64,000 bases of DNA. Origin: Tessaracoccus lacteus. GTDB lineage: Bacteria > Actinomycetota > Actinomycetes > Propionibacteriales > Propionibacteriaceae. The position numbers and the translations under genes were made by a program. The notes beneath the pieces were generated by a model that had not been told where the DNA came from, searched no databases, and was given only the letters and a program-made list of their open reading frames with translations. Positions 9,304-24,986 of the stretch are shown here, piece after piece. The DNA lies in the NCBI RefSeq assembly GCF_029917005.1, contig NZ_CP123967.1, positions 1,178,001 through 1,242,000 of the forward strand. Reading direction: 5' to 3'. Every line of letters starts with the position of its first letter. Positions within the stretch are counted from its first letter, which is position 1.

Positions 9304-10026
9304 TCACTCGAAGACGGGCTGGCGGGAGATCCACTCCGACAGTGACACGCGCGGGCCGGTGTAGAACGGCGTCTCCTCGCGGACGTGGAGGCGGGCCTCC
9401 ACGCCGCGCTGGTGACGCATCGCGTCGGTCAGGCGGTGCAGCTCGTCGGCCTCGAAGGCGAGGATCCACTCGTAGTCGCCCAGCGCGAAGCTTGACAGTG
9501 TCGACGCCACTACGTCCGGGTACTCGCGGCCGGCCATGCCGTGTTCGTAGAGCATCTTCGAGCGGTGTTCGTCGTCCAGGACGTACCAGTCGTAGCTGCG
9601 CACGAACGGGTAGACCGTCAGCCACGGGCGGGGGGCGAAGCCCGCGAAGCAGCTGGGCACGTGCGTCCGGTTGAACTCCGCTGGGCGGTGCACACCCATG
9701 ACGGACCAGACTGGCTCCAGGTACTGACCGAGCGAGCTCTGCCGGAACGCGTGGTAGCCAGCCTGCAGGTCGCGTGGGTCGCTGGCAAGCGTCCACACCA
9801 TCAGGTCCGCGTCCGCGCGGAAGCCGCCGACGTCGTAGAAGCCACGGACGGTCACGCCGGTCGACTCCAGGTCCTGCTCGGCGCGGTCGAGGGTCTCGTC
9901 GATCGCGGACAGCGGCGTGCACGTCGCGTAGACCGAGTACATCGCGTAGAGGGGGGAGGCGTTGATGGCCTCGAGGTCGACGTCGGTGGCGTCGCGCTCG
10001 TCGCGGCCGGGGTGCTTCACGGTCAT
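9304..10026 (-). CDS. hemQ: Coproheme decarboxylase (HemQ/ChdC)
   Basis: HemQ oxidatively decarboxylates two propionates of Fe-coproporphyrin III to make heme b, the last step of the Gram-positive pathway. The 240-residue product has the chlorite dismutase-like fold, with AMYSVYATCTPLS near the start and the active-site region YPFVRSYDWYVL containing the expected tyrosine. KMLYEHGMAGREYPDV follows and supplies the likely proximal histidine. The start ATG at 10026 has AAGGAG about 9 nt upstream; a longer in-frame extension is not supported. It lies downstream of hemH in a hemA-hemH-hemQ run. Confidence 0.95.
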   Translation of the reverse strand: MTVKHPGRDERDATDVDLEAINASPLYAMYSVYATCTPLSAIDETLDRAEQDLESTGVTVRGFYDVGGFRADADLMVWTLASDPRDLQAGYHAFRQSSLGQYLEPVWSVMGVHRPAEFNRTHVPSCFAGFAPRPWLTVYPFVRSYDWYVLDDEHRSKMLYEHGMAGREYPDVVASTLSSFALGDYEWILAFEADELHRLTDAMRHQRGVEARLHVREETPFYTGPRVSLSEWISRQPVFE

Positions 10027-10052
10027 GGGGGCTCCTTCGTCGGGTCGGGTGA

Positions 10053-11084
10053 TCAGCGGGGGAGGCAGTGCTCGCCGGCGCACGGCGCGCAGGCCAGCGC
10101 GGCGGAGCTCAGCTCGCCGCGTGCGACGGCCGCCAGCTCGACGAGCTTGTCGACGAGCAGTTCGACGAACTCGGGATCGTCATCGACGGTGCCGGCCCGC
10201 ACGTACGCCAGCCCCTGGGCCTCGGCGGTCTCGCTCGCCTGCGTGTCGAGGTCGTAGCGGACCTCCATGTGGTCCGAGATGAACCCGATGGGGGCCGTGA
10301 CGACGCCGACGACGCCCTCGAGCTCCTCCATGCGGTCGTTGACGTCGGGCTCCAGCCACGGGATGTGCGGCGACCCGGAGCGCGAGCAGTAGGTCAGCTC
10401 CCAGTCGAGTTCCTCGCCCAGCTCGGCCGACGCCACCTCGGCGACCTTCTCCGCGACCCGCAGCGTCTGCGCGTCGTAGCGCGTCGACGGGGCGCCCGAC
10501 CCGGAGGCGGCGTTCATCGCCAGCGGGATGGAGTGCGTCACGAACAGCAGCTTCGCTGTGCCGTCCCCGAGCTTCGCGCGCAGCTCCCGCCACGCGGCGG
10601 CGACGGCGCGGGCGTTGGCCCGGATGAACTGGGGGGACTCGGCGAAGGGTCCGACCTTGTCGAAGTGCACGGCCCCGTCGACGGCGGCCTCGGCACTGTC
10701 GAGGTCCTCGCGGTACTGGCGGCACGACGAGTAGGAGGAGTAGGCACTGGTGGCGAGCGCGGCGACGCGCTCGTGTCCGCCCGCGGCCAGCTGCTCGACC
10801 GTCTCGGCGAAGTAGGGGTGCCAGTTGCGGTTGCCGATCACGACGGGGACATCGATCCCGCGCCGGCCCAGCTCAGCCCGCAGCCGCTCCATCAGGGCGG
10901 CGTTCAGCTCGTTGAGCGGCGACTTCCCGCCGAACAGGTCGTAGTGCCGCGACACCTCGACGAGCCGCTCGTCCGGGATGTTCCTCCCGGCGGTGGCGTT
11001 GCGCATGAACGGCAGCACGTCCTCGGTCCGGTCCGGTCCCCCGTAGGAGGCCACGAGCACGGCCGTGTACGGCGCCAGGCTCAC
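10053..11084 (-). CDS. hemH: Coproporphyrin III ferrochelatase (CpfC/HemH)
   Basis: The enzyme inserts Fe2+ into coproporphyrin III. The 343-residue product shows the ferrochelatase blocks VLVASYGGPDRTEDVLPF, the metal-binding histidine region IGNRNWHPYF, LATSAYSSYSSCRQYRED, FVTHSIPLAMN and a PIGFISDHMEVRYDLD segment with the catalytic histidine. Actinobacterial ferrochelatases often carry a [2Fe-2S] cluster. The cysteine-rich C-terminus CAPCAGEHCLPR together with the cysteine in SSCRQY would fit such a cluster. GTG 11084 overlaps the hemA stop and has AGGAGG upstream. HemQ beside it shows that the substrate is coproporphyrin and not protoporphyrin. Confidence 0.94.
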   Translation of the reverse strand: MSLAPYTAVLVASYGGPDRTEDVLPFMRNATAGRNIPDERLVEVSRHYDLFGGKSPLNELNAALMERLRAELGRRGIDVPVVIGNRNWHPYFAETVEQLAAGGHERVAALATSAYSSYSSCRQYREDLDSAEAAVDGAVHFDKVGPFAESPQFIRANARAVAAAWRELRAKLGDGTAKLLFVTHSIPLAMNAASGSGAPSTRYDAQTLRVAEKVAEVASAELGEELDWELTYCSRSGSPHIPWLEPDVNDRMEELEGVVGVVTAPIGFISDHMEVRYDLDTQASETAEAQGLAYVRAGTVDDDPEFVELLVDKLVELAAVARGELSSAALACAPCAGEHCLPR

Positions 11085-12352
11085 ATGGCCTCCTGCATTC
11101 CGCTCACCGACTCCAGGTCGCACACCTTCAGATTCGTGACGGGGCATGTCTGCTCCTCCAGCTGGTCGGCATCGATCATGTCTGCCTGCCTGATGCCGTA
11201 CAGCTCGGCCATCGCCGTCAGGTACGCGTCGGTGCGTCCCTCCTCGGCGGCCTGGTGGGCGCGCGCGGAGGGAACGTGAAGCAGGCGGGTCGCGAGCCGG
11301 CGCAGGGCCAGCGCGGCGTCCTCGTGCGTCAGGTCGCGGTGGGGGAGACGGGCGACCTCGTCGGCGACCATGTCCATCACGGACTCGCGCAGACCGACGA
11401 CCACCGGGTCGACGACCCGGGCCCGCAGCTTGGTCATCGCTCCCGAGATGCCGGCGTTGACCAGCGACTTCGCGGCCCTGGCGTCCTCGGCGATGTGCTC
11501 ACCGACGTGCTCCTGGATGGTGGCCAGGTCGATCACGCGGACGCCGTCGAGGGTCGCGACGTCGGGGGCGACGTCGCGCTTGAGCGACAGGTCGAGGAAG
11601 GTGTGGGGGCGAAGCACGTCGGCCGACGTGATCGCGAAGGCGCCCTGCCCGCGGCAGGTGATGACGAGGTCGGCCTTCGCGAGGCCTTCGGTCAGGTGCG
11701 TGACGTGGGAGATGTCGTGGCCAGCGGCGAACGTGGCGGCGCGCCCCGAGAAGGAGTGGACCGTGATGTCGGTCACGCCGCGCTGACGCAGGGACGCGAC
11801 GACGGCGCCCGCGTAGGAGCCGGTGCCGACGATGAGCGCGCGGAGCCGCGGCCAGTCGATCGAGCCGATCAGGTCGAGTCCCGTGCTGACGACCGAACGG
11901 CCGGTCCCCTCGAGCGTGGTCTGGTTCGCGATCCGACGCGACGTCTTGAGCGCCTCCTCGATCGCGATGGTCAGCGGCAGCGACGCCTGGCCGGCCTCCT
12001 GCGACGCGCGCAGCGCGCGCTTGAGCTGGCCGGCGATCTCGCGCTCGCCGACCACCATCGAATCGAGCCCCGCGGCGACGCGGAACAGGTGGCCCAGCGC
12101 GGCCTCTCCGAGGTACAGATCCCACGCGGGGGCGGTGTCGTAGCCGCGGTTCAGCACGCTGCGCAGGCAGGAGTTCGGCACCTCGGCGACGGTGTCGAGG
12201 ATGACCTCCACGCGGTTGCACGTGCTCAGGAGGACGGCGCCGGCGACGCCCTGATACGAGAGCAGGGCCTCGGCAACGCCGTCGATGTGTTCGCTGACCC
12301 GGGCGACTTCGGTCAGGCCCTGGCGGTCGTGTTGGATGGAGAAGACTCGCAT
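11081..12352 (-). CDS. hemA: Glutamyl-tRNA reductase
   Basis: The enzyme reduces glutamyl-tRNA(Glu) to glutamate-1-semialdehyde, the first committed step of C5 heme synthesis. The 423-residue product has the catalytic cysteine C45 in LLSTCNRVEV, the substrate-binding segment FRVAAGLDSMVVGEREIAGQ, a nucleotide-binding region IVGTGSYAGAVVASL and the long C-terminal helical dimerisation part. The usual HHxxAP-like N-terminal motif appears as IQHDRQG. ATG 12352 is chosen as the conserved start; six extra upstream codons are unlikely. It heads the minus-strand hemA-hemH-hemQ operon and is divergent from hemE. Confidence 0.93.
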   Translation of the reverse strand: MRVFSIQHDRQGLTEVARVSEHIDGVAEALLSYQGVAGAVLLSTCNRVEVILDTVAEVPNSCLRSVLNRGYDTAPAWDLYLGEAALGHLFRVAAGLDSMVVGEREIAGQLKRALRASQEAGQASLPLTIAIEEALKTSRRIANQTTLEGTGRSVVSTGLDLIGSIDWPRLRALIVGTGSYAGAVVASLRQRGVTDITVHSFSGRAATFAAGHDISHVTHLTEGLAKADLVITCRGQGAFAITSADVLRPHTFLDLSLKRDVAPDVATLDGVRVIDLATIQEHVGEHIAEDARAAKSLVNAGISGAMTKLRARVVDPVVVGLRESVMDMVADEVARLPHRDLTHEDAALALRRLATRLLHVPSARAHQAAEEGRTDAYLTAMAELYGIRQADMIDADQLEEQTCPVTNLKVCDLESVSGMQEAM

Positions 12353-12409
12353 TGTCACAGTGGGGCCCATTCAACCACTTTTCGGAGGGTGAGGCAGAAT
12401 CTAGGCATC
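12353..12409. promoter_or_regulatory. Divergent hemA / hemE promoter region
   Basis: Only 57 bp separate the two divergent heme operons, so their promoters must overlap. On the plus strand CAGAAT (12395-12400) and TAGGCA (12402-12407) are candidate -10 boxes very close to the hemE ATG, implying a leaderless or nearly leaderless mRNA. I see no convincing operator palindrome. Confidence 0.45.
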
Positions 12410-13417
12410 ATGAGTGCACTGCTTTCCGCGCTGGGCGGACATCGTTCCAAGAGGCTCCCCGTCTGGTTCATGCGACAGGCCGGCCGATCACTTCCCGAGT
12501 ACAGGATCGCCAGAGCCGACACTACGATCCTCGAGGCGTGCCTCCAACCCGACCTGGCCGCCGAGATCACGCTGCAGCCCGTCCGCCGCCACGGCGTCGA
12601 TGCCGCGATCTTCTTCTCCGACATCATGACCCCGCTCGTGCTGGCCGGCGTCGACGTCGAGATCGTCTCCGGCATCGGCCCGGTCGTCGAGAACCCGATC
12701 CGCACGGCGGCCGACGTCGACCGCATCACCGGGAGCCGCATCGAGGACCTGAGCGCCATCACGGAGGCCGTCCGGCTCGTCGTGGCCGAGCTCGGCGACG
12801 AGACGCCGCTCATCGGCTTCGCCGGTGCCCCGTTCACGCTGGCCGCCTACCTCGTCGAGGGCCGCGGCTCCCGCGACCACCTCGCCGCCCGCTCGATGAT
12901 GCACGCCGAGCCCGAGGCCTGGCACCGGCTGCTGGACTGGGCGGCGCGGCTGTCTGGCCAGTTCCTCACCGCCCAGGTCGACGCCGGCGCCCGCGCCGTG
13001 CAGCTGTTCGACTCGTGGGCCGGGTCCCTGACCCGCGCCGACTACACCGGCTTCGTCGCCGACCACTCTGCGACGGCGCTGTCGTCCGTGGCGGGGCGCG
13101 TCCCGCGCATCCACTTCGGCACCGGCACCCGTCATCTCCTCACCGACATGGCCGGCTGCGGGGTCGAGGCGATGGGCATCGACTACCGCATCCCGCTCGA
13201 CGAGGCGGCCGCGGTCCTGCCCGGCCTCCCGCTGCAGGGCAACATCGACCCGGCCCTGCTGGCCGCCGGCTGGGGACCGTTGGAGGCCCACGCCCGCGAC
13301 GTCGTCGAGCGGGGAAAGGCCGCGCCTTCGCACGTGGTCAACCTCGGCCACGGCGTTCCCCCCACCACCGACCCCGCGGTGCTCACCGACCTGGTGGCGC
13401 TCATCCACGAGCTGTGA
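12410..13417 (+). CDS. hemE: Uroporphyrinogen decarboxylase
   Basis: The enzyme decarboxylates the four acetates of uroporphyrinogen III to give coproporphyrinogen III. The 335-residue length is normal. Signature regions are PVWFMRQAGRSLPEYR near the N-terminus, FFSDIMTPLVLAGVDVE with the catalytic aspartate, GFAGAPFTLAAYLVEG, VQLFDSWAG and VNLGHGVPPTTDP near the end. ATG 12410 is the conserved start; the longer upstream frame is antisense to hemA and rejected. The next gene starts inside its stop codon, so hemE through hemL form a chain of overlapping genes. Confidence 0.96.
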   Translation: MSALLSALGGHRSKRLPVWFMRQAGRSLPEYRIARADTTILEACLQPDLAAEITLQPVRRHGVDAAIFFSDIMTPLVLAGVDVEIVSGIGPVVENPIRTAADVDRITGSRIEDLSAITEAVRLVVAELGDETPLIGFAGAPFTLAAYLVEGRGSRDHLAARSMMHAEPEAWHRLLDWAARLSGQFLTAQVDAGARAVQLFDSWAGSLTRADYTGFVADHSATALSSVAGRVPRIHFGTGTRHLLTDMAGCGVEAMGIDYRIPLDEAAAVLPGLPLQGNIDPALLAAGWGPLEAHARDVVERGKAAPSHVVNLGHGVPPTTDPAVLTDLVALIHEL

Positions 13418-14703
13418 GCCGCGTCACGGTGGTCGGCGGCGGGCTGGCCGGCCTGCTCGCCGCGTACCGGCTCCTCGGCCGGGGACACCAGGTCGTGCTG
13501 TTCGAGTCCGCTCCGACGCCGGGCGGGATGATCGCGTCGATCGAGCTGGCCGGGCTCCGCGTCGACTCGGGGGCGGAGGCCTACGCCACGCGCGGCGGGA
13601 ACGTCGCGCCGCTGATGGCCGAGCTCGGGCTCGAGGTCGCCGGACCGACGGGGGACCCCTTCGTCTGGTGGCCAACCGGCAGCTACCCCCTGGCCACAGG
13701 GGTGCTCGGCATCCCGGCGTCCCGCGACGACCCCGCGCTGGCGGCCCTGACCGACGGAGAACGCGCCGTCGCCGCCCACGACGCGGAACTCGGATCCGAG
13801 GTCGGGGCGGACGCCACGACCGTCGGCGAACTCGTCGCCGCCCGGCTCGGGCAGGCGGTCGTCGACAAGCTGGTCGCGCCGCTCACCCAGGGCGTCTACG
13901 CCAGTGACCCTGCTCGGTTGTCGCTGGCCGTGGCTCCGGCGCTGCTGCCTGCGCTCGCGTCCGAGGGGTCGCTGATGGCGGCGGTGGCGAAGGTCCGGGG
14001 ACCCGGCGCGCCGTCGGTCCAGCAGCCCGTCGGAGGCATGTTCCGCCTGATCGACGTCCTCACCGAGCGGGTCCGGGAGCTGGGCGGCGAGATCCGCCTC
14101 GCGATGCCCGTGACGGCCCTCGCGCCCGGTGCCAGAGGCGGCTTCGTCGTCACCTGCCGCGACGGGTCGAGCATCGACAGCGACCGGGTCGTGCTCGCCG
14201 CGCCCGCGGCCGTGTCGCTGCGGCTCTTGGCCCAGCTGGGCGTCGAGGCGGAGGTCCCGGCCGTGAAGAAGGCCCGCCACGTCATGCTCGCCGTCACGAC
14301 CCCCGTGCTGCGCGACGACCCCGTCGGGTCCGGGGTCCTGATGGGCACCACGGCTCCGTCGGTCAGCGCCAAGGCGCTGACGCACTACTCCGCCAAGTGG
14401 CCCTGGGCCCGCGAGGGCACCGACGTCGAGGTGCTGCGGGTGTCCTACCCGGAGCACGTTTTCCCAACCCGCTCGCAAGCCGTTGCAGATGCGTCCGCGC
14501 TGACCGGGGTCGGCATCGACGACGCCGATGTCGTGGGTCTCGCGTCGCTAGGGTGGGAATCGATGCCAGTGCGAATCGCCCCCGCCACGCGCGACCACCT
14601 GCTGCAGGCCGCAGCGGGGGTCGGCGTCGAGCTGGTGGGCGCCTGGCTGGACGGCAACGGCATCTCCACCGTCGTCGCGGGAGTGGAGCGGGTGACCAGA
14701 TGA
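13414..14703 (+). CDS. hemY: Coproporphyrinogen III oxidase (HemY/CgoX)
   Basis: This FAD enzyme oxidises coproporphyrinogen III to coproporphyrin III, removing six electrons with O2. The 429-residue product opens with the dinucleotide-binding motif VVGGGLAGLLAAYRL, followed by VLFESAPTPGGMI and RVDSGAEAYATRGG. LTQGVYASDPARLSL in the middle and the C-terminal FAD-binding segment GAWLDGNGISTVVAGVE are also typical. Because hemQ is in the same cluster, the coproporphyrinogen activity is favoured over protoporphyrinogen oxidase. GTG 13414 overlaps the hemE stop; the hemC-hemD fusion starts inside its own stop. Confidence 0.93.
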   Translation: MSRVTVVGGGLAGLLAAYRLLGRGHQVVLFESAPTPGGMIASIELAGLRVDSGAEAYATRGGNVAPLMAELGLEVAGPTGDPFVWWPTGSYPLATGVLGIPASRDDPALAALTDGERAVAAHDAELGSEVGADATTVGELVAARLGQAVVDKLVAPLTQGVYASDPARLSLAVAPALLPALASEGSLMAAVAKVRGPGAPSVQQPVGGMFRLIDVLTERVRELGGEIRLAMPVTALAPGARGGFVVTCRDGSSIDSDRVVLAAPAAVSLRLLAQLGVEAEVPAVKKARHVMLAVTTPVLRDDPVGSGVLMGTTAPSVSAKALTHYSAKWPWAREGTDVEVLRVSYPEHVFPTRSQAVADASALTGVGIDDADVVGLASLGWESMPVRIAPATRDHLLQAAAGVGVELVGAWLDGNGISTVVAGVERVTR

Positions 14704-16328
14704 GGCTCAGGCTCGGCACGCGCGGCTCGGCGCTGGCCGTCGGACAGTCCGGAATCGTCGCGGACCTGGTCCGCGGGCTGGGCCACGAGGTCGACCTCGT
14801 CCGCATCAGGACGGGTGGAGACGTCGAGCAGGGGTCCCTGACGAGGCTCGGCACGCTGGGCGTGTTCGCGGCCGAGCTGCGCCAGGCGCTCCTCGACGAC
14901 CGCGTGGACTTCGCCGTGCACTCCCTGAAGGACCTTCCCGTCGCGCCGGTACCCGGCCTGACGATCGTCGCGGTGCCCGGCCGCGAGGATCCGCACGACG
15001 CGTTGTGTGCCCGCGACGGGCTCACGCTGGCCGGGCTTCCCGCCGGCGCCACCGTCGGCACCGGGTCGCCGCGCCGCGTCGCCCAACTGCGAGCGCTCCG
15101 CCCCGACCTGAGCTTCGTCGACGTCCGGGGCAACGTCGGGACGCGGCTCGCCCGGGTTGCGTCGGGAGACCTCGACGCCGTCGTGCTGGCCGCAGCCGGC
15201 CTGCGGCGCCTCGGCCTCGACAGCCACATCACGGACCTGCTCGGCATCCTGCCGGCCCCCGGCCAGGGGGCGTTGGCCGTCGAGTGCCGGGCCACCGACA
15301 CCGAGGTGCAGGCCATCCTGGCGGCCCTCGACGACCCTGCTGTGCACGCCGCCATCGACGCGGAGCGGGCCGTGCTCGCCGGGCTCGGCGGGGGGTGCGC
15401 CGCACCCATCGCGGCCTGGGCGCACGACGGCATCATCACGGGCGGCGTCTTCGCCCTCGACGGCACCTCCGCGGCCCACGCCACCAGGGCTCTCGAGGCC
15501 GGCGCGGGTGAGAGGATCGTCGCCGACCTGCTCGCCGCGGGCGCCGCCGACCTCACCGACCTGGGCGCCACCCGCGGATCGCGGCTGGCCGAACTGCACG
15601 ACGACACGTCGCTGTGGGGATCGGACAAGGTGCTGGCCGGCACGCGAGTCTTCCTCCCGCGCCCCGAGGGCGCCCTCGCCGAGGGCATCCGGGCGGCCGG
15701 CGCGGAGGTCGTCGCCCACCCCGTCCAGCACCACCGCACGGTGCCGGCCGACGTCGCGCTCGACGGCGCCGACTGGGTCGCTTTCACGTCCGCCGCGACG
15801 CTGGACGCGCTCGATCAGCTCGGCGTCCTGGTGCCGGAGGGGCCACGCATCGCGGCGGTCGGAGCCTCCACCGCGGAAGCGCTCGCTGCCCGCGGCATCG
15901 ACGTCGACCTCGTGCCCGAGGGGCCGTCGACCGCCGCCTCCCTCGTCGAGGCCTTCCCCTCCGGCCACGGCACCGTCGTGATCCCCGGCTCCGCGCTCAG
16001 CTCGGCGACGCTCGCTGACGGCCTTGCCGCCAAGGGATGGCGCGTGACCGCGGTGCCCGTCTACACCGTTGAGCCCGTGCGGCAGCTGCCGCAGACCCTG
16101 CTCGAGGAGTGGCGCCTCGGACACTTCGACGTCGTCGTCGTCACGGCCGGATCGATCGGTCGGGCGGTGGGCGGTCTGCTCGGCTGGCCCGAGGGGGTCC
16201 GCGTCGTGGCCTTCGGCGAACCCACCGCCCGGGCGCTGGCCGAGCAGGGCGTCCGGGTGCACGCCGTCGCACAGACCCAGGACGCCGCCGGCGTCATCGA
16301 AGCCATTTCCTCGTTGGGAGAGTCATGA
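14700..16328 (+). CDS. hemCD: Fused hydroxymethylbilane synthase / uroporphyrinogen III synthase
   Basis: One 542-residue protein joins two consecutive heme enzymes. Residues 1 to about 300 are porphobilinogen deaminase: RLGTRGSALAVGQ, FAVHSLKDLPVAP with the catalytic Asp, GTGSPRRVAQ, DVRGNVGTRLARV with R143, LPAPGQGALAVECR, and C233 in GGGCAAPIAA, which anchors the dipyrromethane cofactor. Residues from about 310 to 542 form the two-lobed uroporphyrinogen III synthase: VFLPRPEGALAEGI, DWVAFTSAATL, AAVGASTAEAL, VVIPGS, VVVTAGSIGRAVGG, VVAFGEPTARAL. All key residues of the first enzyme are present. ATG 14700 overlaps the hemY stop, and hemB starts in the stop of this gene. A degenerate paralogue lies at 18642-20321. 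Confidence 0.95.
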   Translation: MRLRLGTRGSALAVGQSGIVADLVRGLGHEVDLVRIRTGGDVEQGSLTRLGTLGVFAAELRQALLDDRVDFAVHSLKDLPVAPVPGLTIVAVPGREDPHDALCARDGLTLAGLPAGATVGTGSPRRVAQLRALRPDLSFVDVRGNVGTRLARVASGDLDAVVLAAAGLRRLGLDSHITDLLGILPAPGQGALAVECRATDTEVQAILAALDDPAVHAAIDAERAVLAGLGGGCAAPIAAWAHDGIITGGVFALDGTSAAHATRALEAGAGERIVADLLAAGAADLTDLGATRGSRLAELHDDTSLWGSDKVLAGTRVFLPRPEGALAEGIRAAGAEVVAHPVQHHRTVPADVALDGADWVAFTSAATLDALDQLGVLVPEGPRIAAVGASTAEALAARGIDVDLVPEGPSTAASLVEAFPSGHGTVVIPGSALSSATLADGLAAKGWRVTAVPVYTVEPVRQLPQTLLEEWRLGHFDVVVVTAGSIGRAVGGLLGWPEGVRVVAFGEPTARALAEQGVRVHAVAQTQDAAGVIEAISSLGES

Positions 16329-17290
16329 TCACCGTCCGTCCGAGAAGGCTGCGCACCACGCCCGCCATGCGGCGTCTCGTGCGCGAGGTCAACCCGCGCC
16401 CCTCGCAGCTCGTGCTGCCGATGTTCGTCGGCGAGTCCGGCGCCGACATCTCCTCGATGCCCGGCGTGCGGCGCCACGACCTCGACGGGCTCAGGCGGGC
16501 CGCCGTCGACGCTGTCGAGGCCGGCGTCGGCGGGCTGATGCTGTTCGGTGTGCCGGACGAGGCGGACAAGGACGACCGCGGAACTCAGGCGTGGGCCGCT
16601 GACGGCATCCTGCAGCGCGGGCTCAGCGCCCTGCGCGAGGCGGTCGGCGACGACACCGTCATCATGGCCGACACCTGCCTGGACGAGTTCACCACGCACG
16701 GCCACTGCGGCTTTCTCACGCCCGACGGCCGCGTCGACAACGACCCGACGCTCGCAGCCTACGTCTCGATGGCCATTGCACAGGCCGCCGCCGGCGCGCA
16801 CGTCGTCGCCCCCTCGGGGATGATGGACGGTCAGGTCGAGGCCATCCGCGCAGGCCTGGACGGCGAGGGCTTCGAGGACGTCGCGATCCTTGCGTACGCG
16901 GCCAAGTACGCATCTGCCTTCTATGGCCCCTTCCGGGAGGCCGTCGACTCCACGCTCACGGGCGACCGGAAGACGTACCAGCAGGACCCCGCGAACCGGC
17001 GAGAGGGCCTGCGTGAGGCCGAGCTCGACCTCGCGGAGGCCGCCGACATGGTCATGGTCAAGCCGGCCGGCTACTACCTGGACGTCCTGGCCGACGTCGC
17101 CGAGATCTCCGACGTGCCGGTGGCCGCCTACCAGGTGTCGGGGGAGTACGCGATGATCGAGGCCGCGGCCGCCAACGGCTGGATCGACCGTCAGCGGGCG
17201 ATCGACGAGTCCGTGACCGCGATCGTGCGGGCCGGCGCGGACATCGTGCTGACCTACTGGGCCAAGGAACTCGCAGGATGGTGGAAGTGA
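16325..17290 (+). CDS. hemB: Delta-aminolevulinic acid dehydratase (porphobilinogen synthase)
   Basis: The enzyme condenses two aminolevulinates to porphobilinogen. The 321-residue product has the two Schiff-base lysine regions [19 protein letters not shown] and [11 protein letters not shown], and ends with the usual [11 protein letters not shown]. The metal motif reads [14 protein letters not shown]: the first and third positions of the zinc triad are Cys but the middle one is Asp, an intermediate between zinc and magnesium types. [12 protein letters not shown] is also conserved. ATG 16325 overlaps the hemCD stop. hemL overlaps its end by 13 bp. Confidence 0.96.
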
Positions 17291-18576
17291 ACCGCGACCA
17301 GGAACTCTTCGAGCGCGCCCGCCGCGTGATCCCGGGCGGCGTCGACTCGCCCGTCAGGGCCTTCGGGTCGGTCGGCGGTACCCCGCTGTTCATCTCCCGC
17401 GCCGAGGGTGCGTACGTCTTCGACGAGAACGGCGACCGCTACGTCGACCTTGTCTGCTCGTGGGGGCCGGCGCTGCTGGGTCACGCGCACCCCGAGGTCG
17501 TCGCGGCCGTCCGCGAGGCCGCCGTGAGGGGCCTGTCCTTCGGCGCCCCGACCTTGGCCGAGGTCGAGCTCGCCGAAGCCGTGCGCGCGAGGGTGCCCGC
17601 CGCCGAGCAGGTCCGTTTCGTGTCGACAGGCACCGAGGCCACCATGACCGCGGTCCGGCTGGCCCGCGGCGCCACGGGCCGCGACGCCATCGTCAAGTTC
17701 GCCGGCTGCTACCACGGACACTCCGACGCGCTGCTCGCCGCCGCCGGGTCCGGCGTCGCCACGCAGGGCCTGCCCGGCTCCGCCGGCGTCACGCAGGCAG
17801 CCGCCCGCGACACCATCGTCGTCGACTACAACGACCTGGACGCGCTGGAGCGGGTCTTCGCCGAGGCGGGCGACCGGATCGCGGCCGTCATCACCGAGGC
17901 CGCCCCCTGCAACATGGGCGTCGTCGCGCCCGCGCCGGGCTTCAACGCTGCCCTGCGTGACCTGACCAGCCGCCACGGCGCGCTCCTGATCGTCGACGAG
18001 GTCCTCACCGGCTTCCGCGTCCACGGGGGCGGCTGGCTCGGGCTCGAGGGCAACGCGTACGCGCCCGACCTCGTGACGTTCGGCAAGGTCGTCGGCGGCG
18101 GCATGCCGCTGGCCGCGCTCGGCGGCCGGGCCGACCTCATGCAGCTGCTCGCCCCCGTCGGGCCCGTCTACCAGGCCGGCACGCTGTCGGGGAACCCGCT
18201 GGCCACCGCCGCCGGCCTCGCGACGCTCCGGCTGGCCGACCGCGGCATCTACGGCCACGTCGACGACCGCTCGACCCAGCTGCAACTCGCCGTCGGCGAG
18301 GCGCTGACCGCCGCGGGGGTGCCGCACGTCGTGCAGAACGCCGGGAACCTGTTCTCCGTCTTCTTCCGCGACGGGGAGGTCTCCACCTACGACGACGCCA
18401 AGGCGCAGGACCAGGCGGCGTTCGCCCGGTTCTTCCACGCCATGCTCGACCAGAAGGTGGCCCTGCCGCCGTCGGCGTTCGAGGCCTGGTTCCTGTCCGC
18501 AGCCCACGATGACAAGGCCATGGACCAGATCGTCTCCGCACTTCCGGCAGCGGCACGCGCCGCGGCGGGTTCATGA
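17278..18576 (+). CDS. hemL: Glutamate-1-semialdehyde 2,1-aminomutase
   Basis: This PLP enzyme moves the amino group of glutamate-1-semialdehyde to form aminolevulinate. The 432-residue product has [16 protein letters not shown] at the N-terminus, the [18 protein letters not shown] phosphate-binding region, [25 protein letters not shown] and the PLP lysine in [17 protein letters not shown]. Length is normal. ATG 17278 overlaps hemB by 13 bp; GTG 17287 is an alternative. With hemA, hemB, hemCD, hemE, hemY, hemH and hemQ it completes every step from glutamyl-tRNA to heme within 9.3 kb. Confidence 0.96.
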
Positions 18577-18641: not shown

Positions 18642-20321
18642 GTGAAGCTTCGGTTGGGTGTGCGCGGGTCGGCATTGGCGCTGGCACGTAGCGAGTTCGT
18701 GGCGGGCAGGCTGCGCGACGCCGGACATGAGGTGGAGGTGGTGCAGGTCACCACGGAGGCGGCCGATGCGAGCCACATGGCCGACGGCTACTCCGTGCTG
18801 TCCTTCGCCGGCGAGCTGCGCGACGCGTTGCGCGACGGCAAGTGCGACGTGGTCGTCCACTCCCACAAGGATCTTCCGCTGAGCAACTACCCCGAGGACC
18901 TGACGATCGCCGCCGTCCCGAAGCGGGGCGACCACCGCGACGTGCTCGTCTCGCTGTCGGGGCGCCCTCTTGCCGCGCTGCCGCGCAAGTCCCGCGTCGG
19001 TGTCTCCGCGCTGCGCCGCATGGCCCAGGTGCGCGCGCTGCGGCCCGACCTGACGTTCGTCGAGGTCGGGGGCACCGCTGAGGAGCGGTTCCGTCGCGTC
19101 GAACCGGGCGATCTGGACGCGATCGTCATCTCGGCTATCGCGGCCAAGTCGCTGGGCCACGAGGGCCGCATCGCCGAGTACCTGCCGATCCTTCCCGCGC
19201 CGGGCCAGGGCGCGTTGGCGCTCGAATGCCCCAGGGATGCATCCGACGTGATCGAGGCGCTCTCGGTCATCGACGACATCGAGACCCGCATCTGCGTGGA
19301 GGCCGAGCGCGCCGTGCTGACGGGCCTACACACGACCTACCTGGCGCCGGTCGGTGCGATCGCGTCGCGGCGAGGAGTGCTGGGCCTGAAGGCCGGCGTG
19401 TTCTCCGTGGACGGCACCAAGCGCGTCGTGCTGGAGATCGGCCTCCCGACCTCGCATCTGCACGCTGAGCGCACCGGCCACAACGTGGCGAACGCCCTCC
19501 TGCAGCGCCGCGCCGACCGGTTCATCGCTCCAGAGGTCCTCGCCAACGTCGACCTCAACGCGGAGCAGGTCGATCCCGAGTCGATGTTCGTGGAGAGCGC
19601 CGCCGACGACGATCGCGTCCGCGTGCTGCTGCCGCGACTTGAGGGCCGCCTCGCGACGTCGCTGCGCAGCAACGGGCTCCGCGTCGACTGCGTCACGCTC
19701 CAGGAGGGAAAGCTCATTGCGGCAGACAACCTGATGCGCGGCGCCGACTGGGTCGTCATCCCGTCGGGTCAGACCATGTGGGCACTGCGCGAGCGAGGTT
19801 GGGACATTCCCGACGGCGCGAAGGTCGCCGCGATGGGCACCACCACCCAGCAGATCGTCGAGGAGGCCGGGTACACGGTGACGCTGTGCCCCGAGGGCAC
19901 GGCGAGCTCGCAGCGCCTCGTCGAGATGTTCCCACCCGCGGAGGGCGACCAGCGGGTTGTCATCCCCGGGCCCCGTCAGCTGTCCACCAAGCTGGAGGAG
20001 GGGCTGCGTGACAAGGGCTATGCCGTCGAGCGCAACGAGATCTACTCCATGGAGGATGTGGCCGAGATCGAGCCGGAGCTGCGGGCCAAGTGGGACGCTG
20101 GCACCTGGGACGCGATCCTGCTGTCGCAGCCGTCGACGGCCGAGGCCTACATCAACGTCCTGGGTAACCGCGACGACGTCCTCGCGCTCGCCTGGGACGA
20201 TGAGACCGCCTCCGTTCTCGAGGCCGCAGGGGTCCCCGTTTTCGAGACCGCGAAGTCCAAGGACGTCTACGGCGTGGCCGCCCTCGCCCGGGCCCTGAAA
20301 GGCCACTTCAACAGGGAATGA
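18642..20321 (+). CDS. Degenerate second HemC-HemD fusion protein
   Basis: This 559-residue protein aligns along its whole length with the HemC-HemD fusion at 14700-16328 and even keeps the same residue numbering through the first domain. Kept features are RLGVRGSALALARSEF, VVVHSHKDLPLS, VSALRRMAQVRALRP and LPAPGQGALALEC. Key residues are lost. The cofactor-anchoring Cys233 is Tyr233 (HTTYLAPVGA replaces GGGCAAPIAA), and the substrate-binding Arg143 is Gly (VGGTAEERF replaces VRGNVGTRL). The HemD half also departs from the family in its last lobe (ALAWDDETASVL). The frame is fully open and GTG 18642 follows GGAAGGA, so it is a real gene, but it should not work as a deaminase. A regulatory or scaffold role in the pathway is only a guess. 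Confidence 0.85.
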   Translation: MKLRLGVRGSALALARSEFVAGRLRDAGHEVEVVQVTTEAADASHMADGYSVLSFAGELRDALRDGKCDVVVHSHKDLPLSNYPEDLTIAAVPKRGDHRDVLVSLSGRPLAALPRKSRVGVSALRRMAQVRALRPDLTFVEVGGTAEERFRRVEPGDLDAIVISAIAAKSLGHEGRIAEYLPILPAPGQGALALECPRDASDVIEALSVIDDIETRICVEAERAVLTGLHTTYLAPVGAIASRRGVLGLKAGVFSVDGTKRVVLEIGLPTSHLHAERTGHNVANALLQRRADRFIAPEVLANVDLNAEQVDPESMFVESAADDDRVRVLLPRLEGRLATSLRSNGLRVDCVTLQEGKLIAADNLMRGADWVVIPSGQTMWALRERGWDIPDGAKVAAMGTTTQQIVEEAGYTVTLCPEGTASSQRLVEMFPPAEGDQRVVIPGPRQLSTKLEEGLRDKGYAVERNEIYSMEDVAEIEPELRAKWDAGTWDAILLSQPSTAEAYINVLGNRDDVLALAWDDETASVLEAAGVPVFETAKSKDVYGVAALARALKGHFNRE

Positions 20322-21324: not shown

Positions 21325-21920
21325 TGCTGCACGAGTTGGTGACAGTTTCGGTTAGGCCGCTTTGGCCTGGGTGTTGTTCATGATGGTCTCGTATTCGATG
21401 GGCGTCAATCGGCCCAGGCTGGCCTGTCGGCGCCTGCGGTGGTAGGTCTGTTCGATCCAGGTCACCATGGCGATGCGCAGCTGGTCGAGGGTGTTCCAGG
21501 AGCGTGGGTCGAGGACGTTCTTGTGCAGGAGCGAGAAGAAGCTCTCCATGGCCGCGTTGTCTCCACTCGACCCGACCCGGCCCATGGACCCGACCATGCG
21601 GTGATGGGTCAGTGCTCGGACCATCTTCCGGCTGCGGAACTGAGAACCCCTGTCGGAGTGAACGATGCAGCCGGCGACGTCGCCGCGCATCGCGACGGCG
21701 TTGTTGAGGGCCGCAACAGCCAGCCGGGACTTCATCCTCGAGTCGATCGAGTAGCCGACGATCCTGCCGGAGTAGGCGTCCTTGATCGCGCAGAGGTAGA
21801 GCTTTCCTTCCGCGGTCTGATGCTCGGTGATGTCGGTGAGCCACAGCTGGTTCTGTGCCTGGGCGGTGGTGAACACGTGACGGGTCCGGCCGTGTTCGTC
21901 GGTGACGGCGCAGAGGTGGA
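21325..21920 (-). mobile_element. IS3-family element, copy 1: 3' part of orfB only
   Basis: The element end TGCTGCA lies at 21325-21331, preceded by GGGAC. The minus-strand frame down to 21352 encodes the C-terminal half of an IS3-type DDE transposase: NQLWLTDITEHQTAEGKLYL, IVHSDRGSQFRS with the second Asp, SSGDNAAMESFFSLLHKN with the Glu, and TYHRRRRQASLGRLTPIEYE. The 5' side is lost; at about 21915-21935 the sequence passes into csoR. orfA and the first half of orfB are absent, so it cannot move by itself. It is nearly identical to the second copy at 24271-24986. Confidence 0.85.
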
Positions 21921-22111: not shown

Positions 22112-24241
22112 TCAGGTGCGGTCGAGGATGCGGTTGGTGCTGGATTCGGGTGTGAGGTCGAGGCGGCGCAGCAGTTGCGCGTTGAGGGCCACCACGACGG
22201 TGGAGGCCGACATGAGGATCGCCCCGATGCTCATCGGCAGCACGAATCCGATCGGGGCGAGGATGCCCGCTGCGAGCGGCACAGAGATGAGGTTGTAGCC
22301 AGCGGCCCACCACAGGTTCTGCTTCATCTTCCGGTAGCTCGCACGCGACAGTTCGAATACCGACAGCACCGACCTCGGGTCCGACGAGGCGAGGATGACT
22401 CCCGCCGAGCCGATCGCCACATCGGTGCCGGCGCCGATGGCGATGCCCACATCGGCCTGTGCGAGGGCCGGGGCGTCGTTCACGCCGTCGCCGACCATCG
22501 CGACCTTGCGCCCCTCGTCCTGCAATTCGGAGACCTTGGCAGCTTTGTCCTCGGGACGCACGCCGGCGAACACACGGTCGATGCCGAGATCCTTGGCGAC
22601 GGTGTCAGCGACCGCCTGGGCGTCTCCAGTGATCATCACGACCTGCGCACCCTGAGAGTGGAGGGCATCGACCGCGTCGCGAGACTCAGACCGGACCTCA
22701 TCGGCCAGGCGTAGTGCACCGATGACCGTGCCGTCGGCGAGGACATGGAGGATGATCGCCCCTTCCTCTCGCCACTGGTCGGCCACACTCAGCTCGTCTG
22801 CGGAGTGCTGTTCGAGCAGATAGGGTCCGCCGACCTCGATGACGGTCCCATCCACGGTGGCCTTCACGCCGACCGCTGGGGAGGAGGTGAAGTCCGAGGC
22901 CTTTGGCACGCGCACTTCGCGGGTTCTGGCGGCTCCGGTGATGGCGCGGGCGAGCGGGTGCTCGCTGTCGGCCTCAGCCGCAGCCGCCAGCGCCAGCACC
23001 TGGCGCTCGTCGCGACCTTGGACAGGCTCAATCGCGGTGACGGTGGGCTCGCCCTTGGTCAGCGTTCCAGTCTTGTCGAACAGGACTGCGTCCACGGTGC
23101 GCATCGACTCCAGCGCGAGGCGATCCTTGATGAGCACCCCGCCGCGAGCGGCGCGTTCAGTGGCGATGGAGACCACCAGCGGGATCGCCAGGCCAAGGGC
23201 GTGGGGGCAGGCGATGACGAGCACGGTGATGGTGCGCACCACGGCGGTGTCGGGCATTCCAACCAGCGCCCACACAATCGCGGTGACTACGGCAGCGCCG
23301 AGGGCGAACCAGAACAGCCACGCCGCCGCGGTATCGGCGATTCGCTGGGCGCGGGAGGACGATGCCTGTGCATCGGTGACGAGCTTCTGGATACCCGCGA
23401 GTGCGGTGTCGTCACCGGTGGCGGTGACCTCGACGCGCAGGCCGGAGTCGGTGGCGACGGTGCCGGCGACGACGTGGTCGCCGCTCTCGCGGCGCACGGT
23501 CTTGGACTCGCCGGTCACCATCGACTCATCCATGCTCGCGCTACCGTCGACGATCTTCCCGTCGGCGGGCACCGAGGAGCCGGGTCGGACGATGACCACG
23601 TCGCCGACGACGAGGTCAGCGGGCGCGACCTTGACGACGTCGTCGCCGTCGACCTTCTCGGCCTCGTCGGGCAGCAGCGCGGCCAGGGAATCCAACGCGG
23701 AGGTGGTCTGGGCCAGGGAACGCATCTCGATCCAATGACCCAGCAGCATAATCACCACCAGCAGGGCCAGTTCCCACCAGAAGTTCAACTCGTGATCGAG
23801 CAGGCGCAGGCTTGCGCCCCAGGATGCGAGGAACGCCACTGTGATCGCCAGCCCGATCAGCAGCATCATCCCCGGCTTGCGGGAGCGGATCTCGCTTAGC
23901 CCGCCGGCGAGGAACGGCCAACCGCCCCAGAAATACATGATGGTGCCCAGGACAGGTGAGACCCACCACACCCACTCGGCCTCAGGTAGTCCGTAGCCGA
24001 TGAGGTTGGCGAACATGTCGTTGAAGCCGACCACGGGCACCGCGAAGACGAGCATGATCCAGAAGAGGCGACGGAACTGCCCGACATGGTCGCCGTGACC
24101 AGCATGTCCCGCGTGGCCGGCATGGCCCTCATGTCCGGCGTGGGCATCGTGAGGGTCGTGACCGGTCGCGTGGTCGTGACCCTCGTGACGATCGTGCACG
24201 GCGTGGTCATCGTGGTGGTGGGCACCGTTCTCATTGCTCAT
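22112..24241 (-). CDS. copB: CopB-type heavy-metal P-type ATPase
   Basis: This 709-residue P1B-type ATPase has a histidine-rich N-terminal tail (residues 1-60, many HEGH/HAGH repeats). The transmembrane CPH motif in VLVIACPHALGL is typical of the P1B-3 (CopB) class and replaces CPC. Other motifs are the phosphatase loop TGESKTV, the phosphorylation site DKTGTLTKGEP, the HP motif SEHPLARAI and the hinge MVGDGVNDAPALAQ. It should export copper (Cu+/Cu2+) across the membrane. No CxxC metal-binding domain is present. ATG 24241 is chosen because the His-rich tail begins there. The frame is also open upstream through IS remnants to 24922, making an accidental 936-codon ORF. Confidence 0.9.
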   Translation of the reverse strand: MSNENGAHHHDDHAVHDRHEGHDHATGHDPHDAHAGHEGHAGHAGHAGHGDHVGQFRRLFWIMLVFAVPVVGFNDMFANLIGYGLPEAEWVWWVSPVLGTIMYFWGGWPFLAGGLSEIRSRKPGMMLLIGLAITVAFLASWGASLRLLDHELNFWWELALLVVIMLLGHWIEMRSLAQTTSALDSLAALLPDEAEKVDGDDVVKVAPADLVVGDVVIVRPGSSVPADGKIVDGSASMDESMVTGESKTVRRESGDHVVAGTVATDSGLRVEVTATGDDTALAGIQKLVTDAQASSSRAQRIADTAAAWLFWFALGAAVVTAIVWALVGMPDTAVVRTITVLVIACPHALGLAIPLVVSIATERAARGGVLIKDRLALESMRTVDAVLFDKTGTLTKGEPTVTAIEPVQGRDERQVLALAAAAEADSEHPLARAITGAARTREVRVPKASDFTSSPAVGVKATVDGTVIEVGGPYLLEQHSADELSVADQWREEGAIILHVLADGTVIGALRLADEVRSESRDAVDALHSQGAQVVMITGDAQAVADTVAKDLGIDRVFAGVRPEDKAAKVSELQDEGRKVAMVGDGVNDAPALAQADVGIAIGAGTDVAIGSAGVILASSDPRSVLSVFELSRASYRKMKQNLWWAAGYNLISVPLAAGILAPIGFVLPMSIGAILMSASTVVVALNAQLLRRLDLTPESSTNRILDRT

Positions 24242-24270
24242 ACCGGTCTCGTTTCTGCTGATGTGGGGAA

Positions 24271-24986
24271 TGCTGCACGAGTTGGTGACAGTTTCGGTTA
24301 GGCCGCTTTGGCCTAGGTGTTGTTCATGATGGTCTCGTATTCGATGGGCGTCAATCGGCCCAGGCGGGCCTGTCGGCGCCTGCGGTGGTAGGTCTGTTCG
24401 ATCCAGGTCACCATGGCGATGCGCAGCTGGTCGAGGGTGTTCCAGGAGCGTGGGTCGAGGACGTTCTTGTGCAGGAGCGAGAAGAAGCTCTCCATGGCCG
24501 CGTTGTCTCCACTCGACCCGACCCGGCCCATGGACCCGACCATGCGGTGATGGGTCAGTGCTCGGACCATCTTCCGGCTGCGGAACTGAGAACCCCTGTC
24601 GGAGTGGACGATGCAGCCGGCGACGTCGCCGCGCATCGCGACGGCGTTGTTGAGGGCCGCAACAGCCAGCCCGTCTGAGGGCCTCGTTCTCCTGCTCGAG
24701 GAGCCGGTTCCGGCGACGCAGCTCCCGCAGTTCCGCGGACTCGCTCACCGTTGTTCCCGGACGGTTGCCGTCCTCGACATCGGCCTGACGCAACCAGTTC
24801 TGCAGACAGGTCTCGCTGATCCCGAAGTCCGTAGCGACTTGCCGGATCGTGACGCCGTCGTCGCGTTGACGGGCCACTCGCACGACATCGTCGCGGAACT
24901 CACGGGGATAGGGCTTGGGCATGATGACAGCCTCTCAACTGGCACCACGTGGCACCACAAGTCAGTTGTCACCTATCCATGCAGCA
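24271..24986 (-). mobile_element. IS3-family element, copy 2, with an internal deletion
   Basis: Both ends are present. The left end reads GGGAATGCTGCA (TGCTGCA at 24271-24277) and the right end, on the minus strand, GGGACTGCTGCA (24980-24986), with GGTGACA shortly inside each. The element is 716 bp, well short of the roughly 1.2-1.3 kb expected. At about 24669 orfA sequence jumps straight to the middle of orfB, at the shared GGCCGCAACAGCCAG boundary, so the 3' part of orfA and the 5' half of orfB are deleted. It lies directly upstream of copB and may supply or disrupt its promoter. Confidence 0.85.
24313..24922 (-). pseudogene. IS3-type transposase orfA-orfB remnant (copy 2)
   Basis: orfA starts at ATG 24922 with KPYPREFRDDVVRVAR, a DNA-binding helix-turn-helix (TIRQVATDFGISETCLQNWL) and the leucine-zipper-like LRRRNRLLEQENEALRRA. 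It breaks at about 24669. The remaining orfB part is in another frame and covers GCIVHSDRGSQFRS to PIEYETIMNNT, ending at a TAG (24313-24315) where copy 1 has a Gln codon. The first Asp of the DDE triad is missing, so no active transposase can be made. Confidence 0.82.

Follow-up and report, generated by a model that had tools for sequence, protein, structure and literature searches.

A conserved HemC-HemD paralogue in the heme gene cluster of Tessaracoccus, predicted to lack hydroxymethylbilane synthase activity

The last gene of the heme cluster of Tessaracoccus lacteus, which we call hemCD2, encodes a second HemC-HemD fusion that is predicted to be catalytically dead, is retained by nearly all sampled members of its genus, and is very probably a heme-pathway pseudoenzyme that has been conserved and neofunctionalised. 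The gene (18642..20321, plus strand, 559 aa) lies in the 64,000-nucleotide stretch of contig NZ_CP123967.1 referred to here as the window. If our reading is true, hemCD2 is, to our knowledge, the first known conserved pseudoenzyme of hydroxymethylbilane synthase (HMBS); a literature search that left subscription journals mostly outside its reach found no paper on a HemC pseudoenzyme or on Tessaracoccus heme genes. Little is known of how coproporphyrin-branch bacteria control the earliest steps of heme synthesis. HMBS is the enzyme by which porphobilinogen is committed to tetrapyrroles, and a dead twin of it with an invariant patch of its own is a concrete candidate for such control.

The hemCD2 gene, its fold, and its active site

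The cluster in the window runs hemQ-hemH-hemA on the minus strand and then hemE-hemY-hemCD1-hemB-hemL-hemCD2 on the plus strand. The minus-strand genes are hemQ (chlorite-dismutase-like coproheme decarboxylase, 9304..10083), hemH (ferrochelatase, 10053..11147), and hemA (glutamyl-tRNA reductase, 11081..12370). They are followed on the plus strand by hemE (uroporphyrinogen decarboxylase, 12395..13417), a hemY-like oxidase gene (13402..14703), the working HemC-HemD fusion hemCD1 with complete active-site residues (14700..16328), hemB (porphobilinogen synthase, 16325..17290), and hemL (glutamate-1-semialdehyde aminomutase, 17278..18576); the starts of hemQ, hemH, hemE, and the hemY-like gene are approximate. 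The end of hemL lies 65 bp upstream of hemCD2, so the two genes adjoin as a sequence-only reading of this DNA had stated. P. freudenreichii has a hemYHBXRL cluster.

The hemCD2 frame begins with GTG, aligned with residue 1 of the orthologues, and stays open for 559 amino acids plus a stop, in agreement with the intact 560-codon frame first described. HemCD1 and HemCD2 (CD1 and CD2 for short) are the only two HemC-HemD copies in the source genome and align over their full length with 38% identity; the residue numbering said to be common to both first domains holds overall, with a one-residue shift around residues 52-85. The HemC region (residues 3-287, 18648..19502) was delimited by PF01379 and PF03900, and the HemD (uroporphyrinogen-III synthase) region (residues 337-541, 19650..20264) by PF02602; Foldseek supports both folds. 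The AF2 model (pLDDT 85.8, pTM 0.64, 23 sequences) and the profiles agree on a three-domain HMBS fold, with Foldseek TM scores, normalized by target, of 0.92 to Vibrio HMBS (5h6o) and 0.69 to P. aeruginosa HemD. The HEM4 fold is present as well, its profile scoring well over the cut-off. Pfam and NCBIfam scans found no DNA-binding, winged-helix, or other output domain. The NCBIfam hemC equivalog model (TIGR00212) gives hemCD2 195 bits against a cut-off of 164, and it names both hemCD2 and a second, Cys-to-Thr form (below) hydroxymethylbilane synthase. This exposes a naming error, and a rule demanding the cofactor Cys would catch such cases.

Alignment confirmed the two substitutions already noticed in the sequence: Tyr at codon 233 (19338..19340), where CD1 has the dipyrromethane-anchoring Cys (E. 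coli C242), and Gly at codon 143 (19068..19070) in place of the first Arg of the RGNVGTR motif (E. coli R149). Three further losses were found that had gone unlisted, namely Q19 to Arg, N151 to Thr, and R176 to Ser (E. coli numbering), while R11, K83, D84, R131, R132, and R155 are retained in alignment with E. coli HMBS. The thioether link to C242 and the role of R149 are described for HMBS in PMC8561815. PMC3945110 covers mutants of E. coli HMBS: the changes R11H, R149H, R155H, and R176H are detrimental, the cofactor is lost in R131L and R132L, and neither D84A nor D84N is active. By analogy with these mutants, hemCD2 would be without hydroxymethylbilane synthase activity; that activity would be lost along with the cofactor Cys, and a dipyrromethane cofactor cannot be expected on the protein. 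The view that hemCD2 is unlikely to be a second ordinary HMBS thus stands, with the anchoring Cys and several catalytic residues gone.

Distribution, selection, and gene position across the genus

Our family sample comprised 197 genomes, 38 of them in the genus; five of the genomes sampled gave no match. The sample yielded 91 rows: 22 dead copies of branch A, which includes the window protein, 14 of branch B, 3 of branch C, 42 working fusions longer than 500 aa, and 10 shorter rows that were left out of the counts (6 fragments or unfused copies with HemC, all keeping the Cys, and 4 HemD pieces). A search of named genus members, mostly Tessaracoccus (T. bendigoensis, massiliensis, lapidicaptus, caeni, oleiagri, flavescens, and coleopterorum), gave 15 loci, and 4 further loci belonged to Georgenia or Oceanitalea. 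A dead second HemC-HemD of branch A or B was present in 36 of the 38 sampled genus genomes, which settles that hemCD2 is not the property of one strain. No dead copy was found in G190 (87% complete, with a working fusion only) or G196 (60% complete, with nothing found). The working copy accompanies the dead one in all of the 36 except G194 (85% complete), and in G129 it is split over contigs.

All 36 dead copies have lost the cofactor Cys, which is kept by 42/42 working fusions and by 17/17 working HemCs sampled elsewhere in the order and family; 16 of these 17 have all nine residues examined, and the remaining one has a gap at the first. The Cys-to-Tyr change is conserved within branch A (Tyr in 22/22) and not in branch B, where the residue is Glu in eight copies and Asp in six. 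Losses common to both branches are Q19 (36/36), R149 (34/36, the exceptions in the full alignment being one A copy and one B copy that still have Arg), and N151 (35/36). In branch A, R11, K83, D84, R131, R132, and R155 are retained in 22/22 copies, and H45 and M46 of the active-site loop are invariant. All 14 copies of branch B, only 34-38% identical to the window protein, have D84 replaced by Arg, K83 by His or Asn, R131 by Leu or Val, and R11 by Lys, and have lost R155.

In a tree of 81 rows, a single branch separates A, and another B, from the remaining rows (SH-aLRT 100 each), and the two are sisters (SH-aLRT 99), a grouping recovered again with SH-aLRT 99 from 46 rows of the HemC part. 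Branch C has Thr in place of the cofactor Cys and Leu in place of R131 (R131 is Leu in 3/3 C and 13/14 B), with the other key residues kept. It belongs to a different genus of the family, where six genomes have it, three of them among the 91 rows above and three in addition. These loci (L062, L066, L068, L124, L125, and L127, genus g7) carry a dead HemC-HemD of their own; three C loci lie near LemA and sortase genes, and two of those three also lie near a methylase-HemD fusion. As for a single origin of A, B, and C, the free tree keeps C apart, but the joint constraint was not rejected (p-AU 0.118), so we make no claim of an independent origin for C.

In an order sample of 127 genomes, two HemCs were found in 12/12 genus genomes and a real second HemC in 3/115 outside the genus (G202, G214, and G217), all three genomes keeping the Cys in both copies; three further double rows were one copy in two pieces. 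A profile of A and B, run against 394 class genomes in which the genus was represented by the window's genome alone, turned up nothing comparable outside the genus: the best match there had 270.6 bits, the window protein 868, and the Cys is kept in all 19 of the top-scoring outside rows that yielded loci. This profile would miss dead copies of other kinds, such as C. In a class sample of 138 genomes, second copies in some other genomes scored above 270 bits, and genus g56 and some others have two or three HemCs per genome, all scoring like working enzymes.

There was no frameshift among the 36 A and B copies. Selection was evaluated as dN/dS by the NG86 method, and we rely on the five pairs with dS < 0.5, three of which share genomes. 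For the dead and the working copy, respectively, the ratios were 0.066 and 0.155 (G000/G095), 0.070 and 0.186 (G070/G159), 0.094 and 0.169 (G147/G159), 0.083 and 0.186 (G070/G147), and 0.105 and 0.165 (G036/G192), such that the dead copy fell below the working copy in 5/5 pairs, and at 0.07-0.11 well below 1, as had been anticipated for a gene under selection. Among 27 pairs with dS < 0.65 in all, the other 22 (dS 0.53-0.65) gave 0.08-0.70 for the dead copy, not consistently under the working copy, with synonymous sites near saturation; our conclusion leans on the closest five and not on these wider 22. A gene of one strain under relaxed selection, the outcome that would have spoken for decay, was not what we found, and a pseudogene or single-strain oddity is ruled out by the 36 open copies together with dN/dS. 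A conserved pseudoenzyme is marked by lost catalytic residues, by purifying selection, and by a working paralogue beside it in the genome, and hemCD2 has all three marks. In T. coleopterorum (L106), hemCD2 is frameshifted in its assembly; the neighboring genes are seemingly broken too, which points to sequencing error in the draft.

The dead copy directly follows hemL in 19/36 genomes (16/22 A and 3/14 B), and eight further B copies sit beyond hemQ-hemH in the same heme cluster, which makes 27/36 inside the cluster and 9/36 elsewhere (6 A and 3 B). A phosphate-transporter gene pair (c13-c14) lies closely behind the dead copy in A (G195) and in B (G139 and G124), and with a few genes between in three more A genomes (G119, G084, and G170). 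Because this pair is found close behind the dead copy in both branches, the place after hemL is ancestral. A place next to hemL is no requirement, however: 19/36 copies keep it, and 9/36 are outside the cluster. Four of the six displaced A copies are right behind nadD-rsfS-phosphatase, that of G105 is behind rsfS, and that of G193 has a hemY-like gene in between; at these displaced copies it is the rest of the heme cluster that moved and hemCD2 that stayed put. The neighbors of the relocated copies (nadD, rsfS, and phosphatase in A, unrelated genes in B) gave no hint of function.

Some local features of these loci deserve mention. In G193, a second hemY-like gene (L035:5787-7088) precedes hemCD2 at the old site, with the complete heme cluster some 190 kb distant. 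In the window, about 30 kb (20322-50420) separate hemCD2 from c13-c14, which adjoin it closely in several other genomes. This stretch, likely an insertion or rearrangement, contains genes for a P-type ATPase, an arabinofuranosidase, a GH4 glycosidase, a sugar-binding protein, and a sulfate permease. The frame 22112-24922 has an HTH_Tnp_1 transposase match at its start (24700-24922, minus strand), ahead of the P-type ATPase, perhaps the remnant of an insertion sequence, and two mutually similar gene calls (cluster c123; 21352-21876 and 24313-24636, minus strand) flank the P-type ATPase.

A derived patch in domain 3 and the possible roles of hemCD2

The old active sites of A and B have decayed differently, yet a derived patch in HemC domain 3 is common to both. 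It consists of an Arg at codon 243 (19368..19370), invariant in A and B (36/36) and absent from working copies, and of the motif GxPTSxxHAxR at codons 267-277 (19440..19472). The motif is present in 22/22 A and 14/14 B copies, in 0/42 working fusions and 0/3 C copies, and in 0/20 further rows (17 working and 3 C). The HemC columns common to A and B and absent from working copies, chosen after the alignment was seen, are R16, R243, L247, G267, P269, T270, S271, H274, A275, and R277. Because G267, P269, and A275 are also present in E. coli HMBS, the new part of the motif is T270, S271, H274, and R277.

Measured from the Cys column through residue 288, domain 3 has 56 residues in 36/36 dead copies. 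The same span is 47 residues in 20/20 working fusions of A genomes, and in those of B genomes (n = 14) it is 46-47 residues in eight, 55 in three, and 88 in three. The 88-residue form, found in G180, G151, and G163 (L090, L052, and L054), contains an insertion, the other working fusions having 47-55 residues. In the AF2 model, R243 ends strand 237-244, and strand 261-267 leads directly into helix 272-288, so the PTS residues are predicted to cap this helix; judging from the topology, R243 and the motif residues would be close in space. A profile alignment (A6) to human HMBS ends at chain residue 293, just ahead of the insert at 296-324. PMC10448817 puts this 29-residue insert between domains 1 and 3, a long way from the active site, and gives its function as unknown. 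We infer that the derived patch is the working site of hemCD2.

The HemD half gained residues as well. R383, W387, and L447 are common to A and B and absent from working copies; codons 383-387 (19788..19802) run from R383 to W387, each of which occurs in at least 90% of A and B. Branch A has Pro374, Pro497, and Asp519 in 22/22 copies (T363 to Pro, G484 to Pro, and G506 to Asp) at columns that are conserved in 95-100% of working fusions and kept by B. In the HemC half, the dead copies have fewer invariant columns than the working copies of the same genomes (77/296 vs 118/285 in A, 80/284 vs 124/283 in B), and in the HemD half they have more (44/229 vs 39/227 in A, 86/227 vs 47/221 in B). As the HemC site is gone in B and the HemD site is altered in A, probably neither is the shared function, whereas the domain-3 patch could be.

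We tentatively favor, at somewhat less than an even chance, the view that hemCD2 serves heme enzymes as a partner or regulator without catalysis of its own; protein binding within the pathway is the step we infer. On this view, an ancient copy of the HemC-HemD fusion, found in each of the two sampled branches of the genus, would have lost the cofactor Cys and turned into a non-catalytic protein while keeping its whole two-domain fold. R243 and GxPTSxxHAxR would form a new working surface where a strand of HemC domain 3 meets a helix, and R383 and W387 of the HemD half are probably part of this surface. As a partner or regulatory subunit, the protein might bind working HemCD1 or a neighboring heme-pathway enzyme and tune or channel the early pathway. 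Counted against this model are the 9/36 copies outside the heme cluster, and a mirror-tree comparison in branch A singled out no heme enzyme (a non-heme phosphatase had r 0.82, equal to HemA at 0.82 and above CD1 at 0.64). The roles of A and B may also differ, given the 34-38% identity of B to the window protein.

A rather unlikely but sizable alternative is a ligand-binding sensor or carrier, in which the clam-shell fold was repurposed to bind, and not convert, a tetrapyrrole, heme, or other anion and to report or deliver it. HMBS domains 1-2 resemble periplasmic binding proteins, and with R11, K83, D84, R131, R132, and R155 kept in 22/22 copies, the cleft of A might accommodate a carboxylated pyrrole. 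Arg and His abound in the new motif, which also has a helix N-cap, a common setting for anion binding. A precedent of sorts is the HemD domain of NnaR, dead in S. coelicolor and proposed as such a sensor (PMC11162112). Branch B, having lost K83, D84, R131, R155, and R11, rules the cleft out as a site common to A and B, and hemCD2 lacks a DNA-binding or other output domain. The porphyrin sensing raised by the sequence-only reading is therefore unlikely to be a role of the HemC cleft common to both branches, B being without nearly all pyrrole-binding residues.

That the HemD half might serve as an extra uroporphyrinogen-III synthase, with the HemC half a mere scaffold, is in keeping with its strong conservation, its HEM4 match, and the three columns that B keeps and A has lost. 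We consider it improbable: the changes at those conserved columns in 22/22 A copies make an extra synthase unlikely for A, even if Pro at the second of them (G484 to Pro) occurs in other synthases, and the working fusion already has a HemD half. Slightly more improbable still is a different reaction, in which the domain-3 motif and Tyr233 would make a new enzyme or the Tyr would anchor dipyrromethane through its oxygen. Tyr233, H45, and M46 are invariant in A, but B has Asp or Glu at the Tyr233 column, R149 is lost in 21/22 A copies, and we know of no chemistry for a dipyrromethane-Tyr oxygen link. A slowly decaying, functionless duplicate would fit the varying position of the copies, the frameshifted copy of T. 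coleopterorum L106 (with neighbors broken too), and the lack of a copy in G190 and G196, but is highly improbable in view of 36 open frames, an invariant motif, and a dN/dS of 0.07-0.11 in the closest pairs, under that of the working enzyme.

The partner or regulator reading can be extended into a broader, doubtful but possible proposal: that a dead HemC-HemD became a genus-wide control subunit of the heme pathway, that the patch marks a general docking place for HMBS partners at the site of the animal insert, and that the Cys-to-Thr form is a second case.

Comparison with known systems

Compared with HMBS enzymes (HemC/PBGD; TIGR00212, PF01379), hemCD2 has the same fold and three-domain layout, and several pyrrole-contacting residues are kept in branch A, but it lacks the cofactor Cys, R149, Q19, and N151 and has the derived domain-3 motif. 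The HemC-HemD fusions of the Propionibacteriaceae, represented here by CD1, share its architecture and gene cluster at 38% identity. CD1 keeps all of the named residues, several of which CD2 has lost, and in branch A genomes domain 3 of CD1 is shorter by 9 residues, exactly at the motif of CD2.

NnaR of Actinomycetes is likewise a heme-pathway enzyme domain that is inactive in S. coelicolor and kept for another role (PMC11162112). As that source presents it, NnaR joins HemD to a winged-helix DNA-binding domain and has no HemC, whereas CD2 joins HemC to HemD and lacks a domain for DNA binding. HemX of B. subtilis and S. aureus, described in PMC10991733 as a non-enzymatic regulator of the level of glutamyl-tRNA reductase, exemplifies non-enzymatic control of early heme synthesis, a way in which CD2 may work, but it is a membrane protein unrelated to CD2 in sequence. 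Human HMBS carries an elaboration at the same place of domain 3 as the motif of CD2 (PMC10448817). The human insert is 29 residues long in an active enzyme, whereas CD2 is 3 residues longer than E. coli HMBS there and is predicted to be dead.
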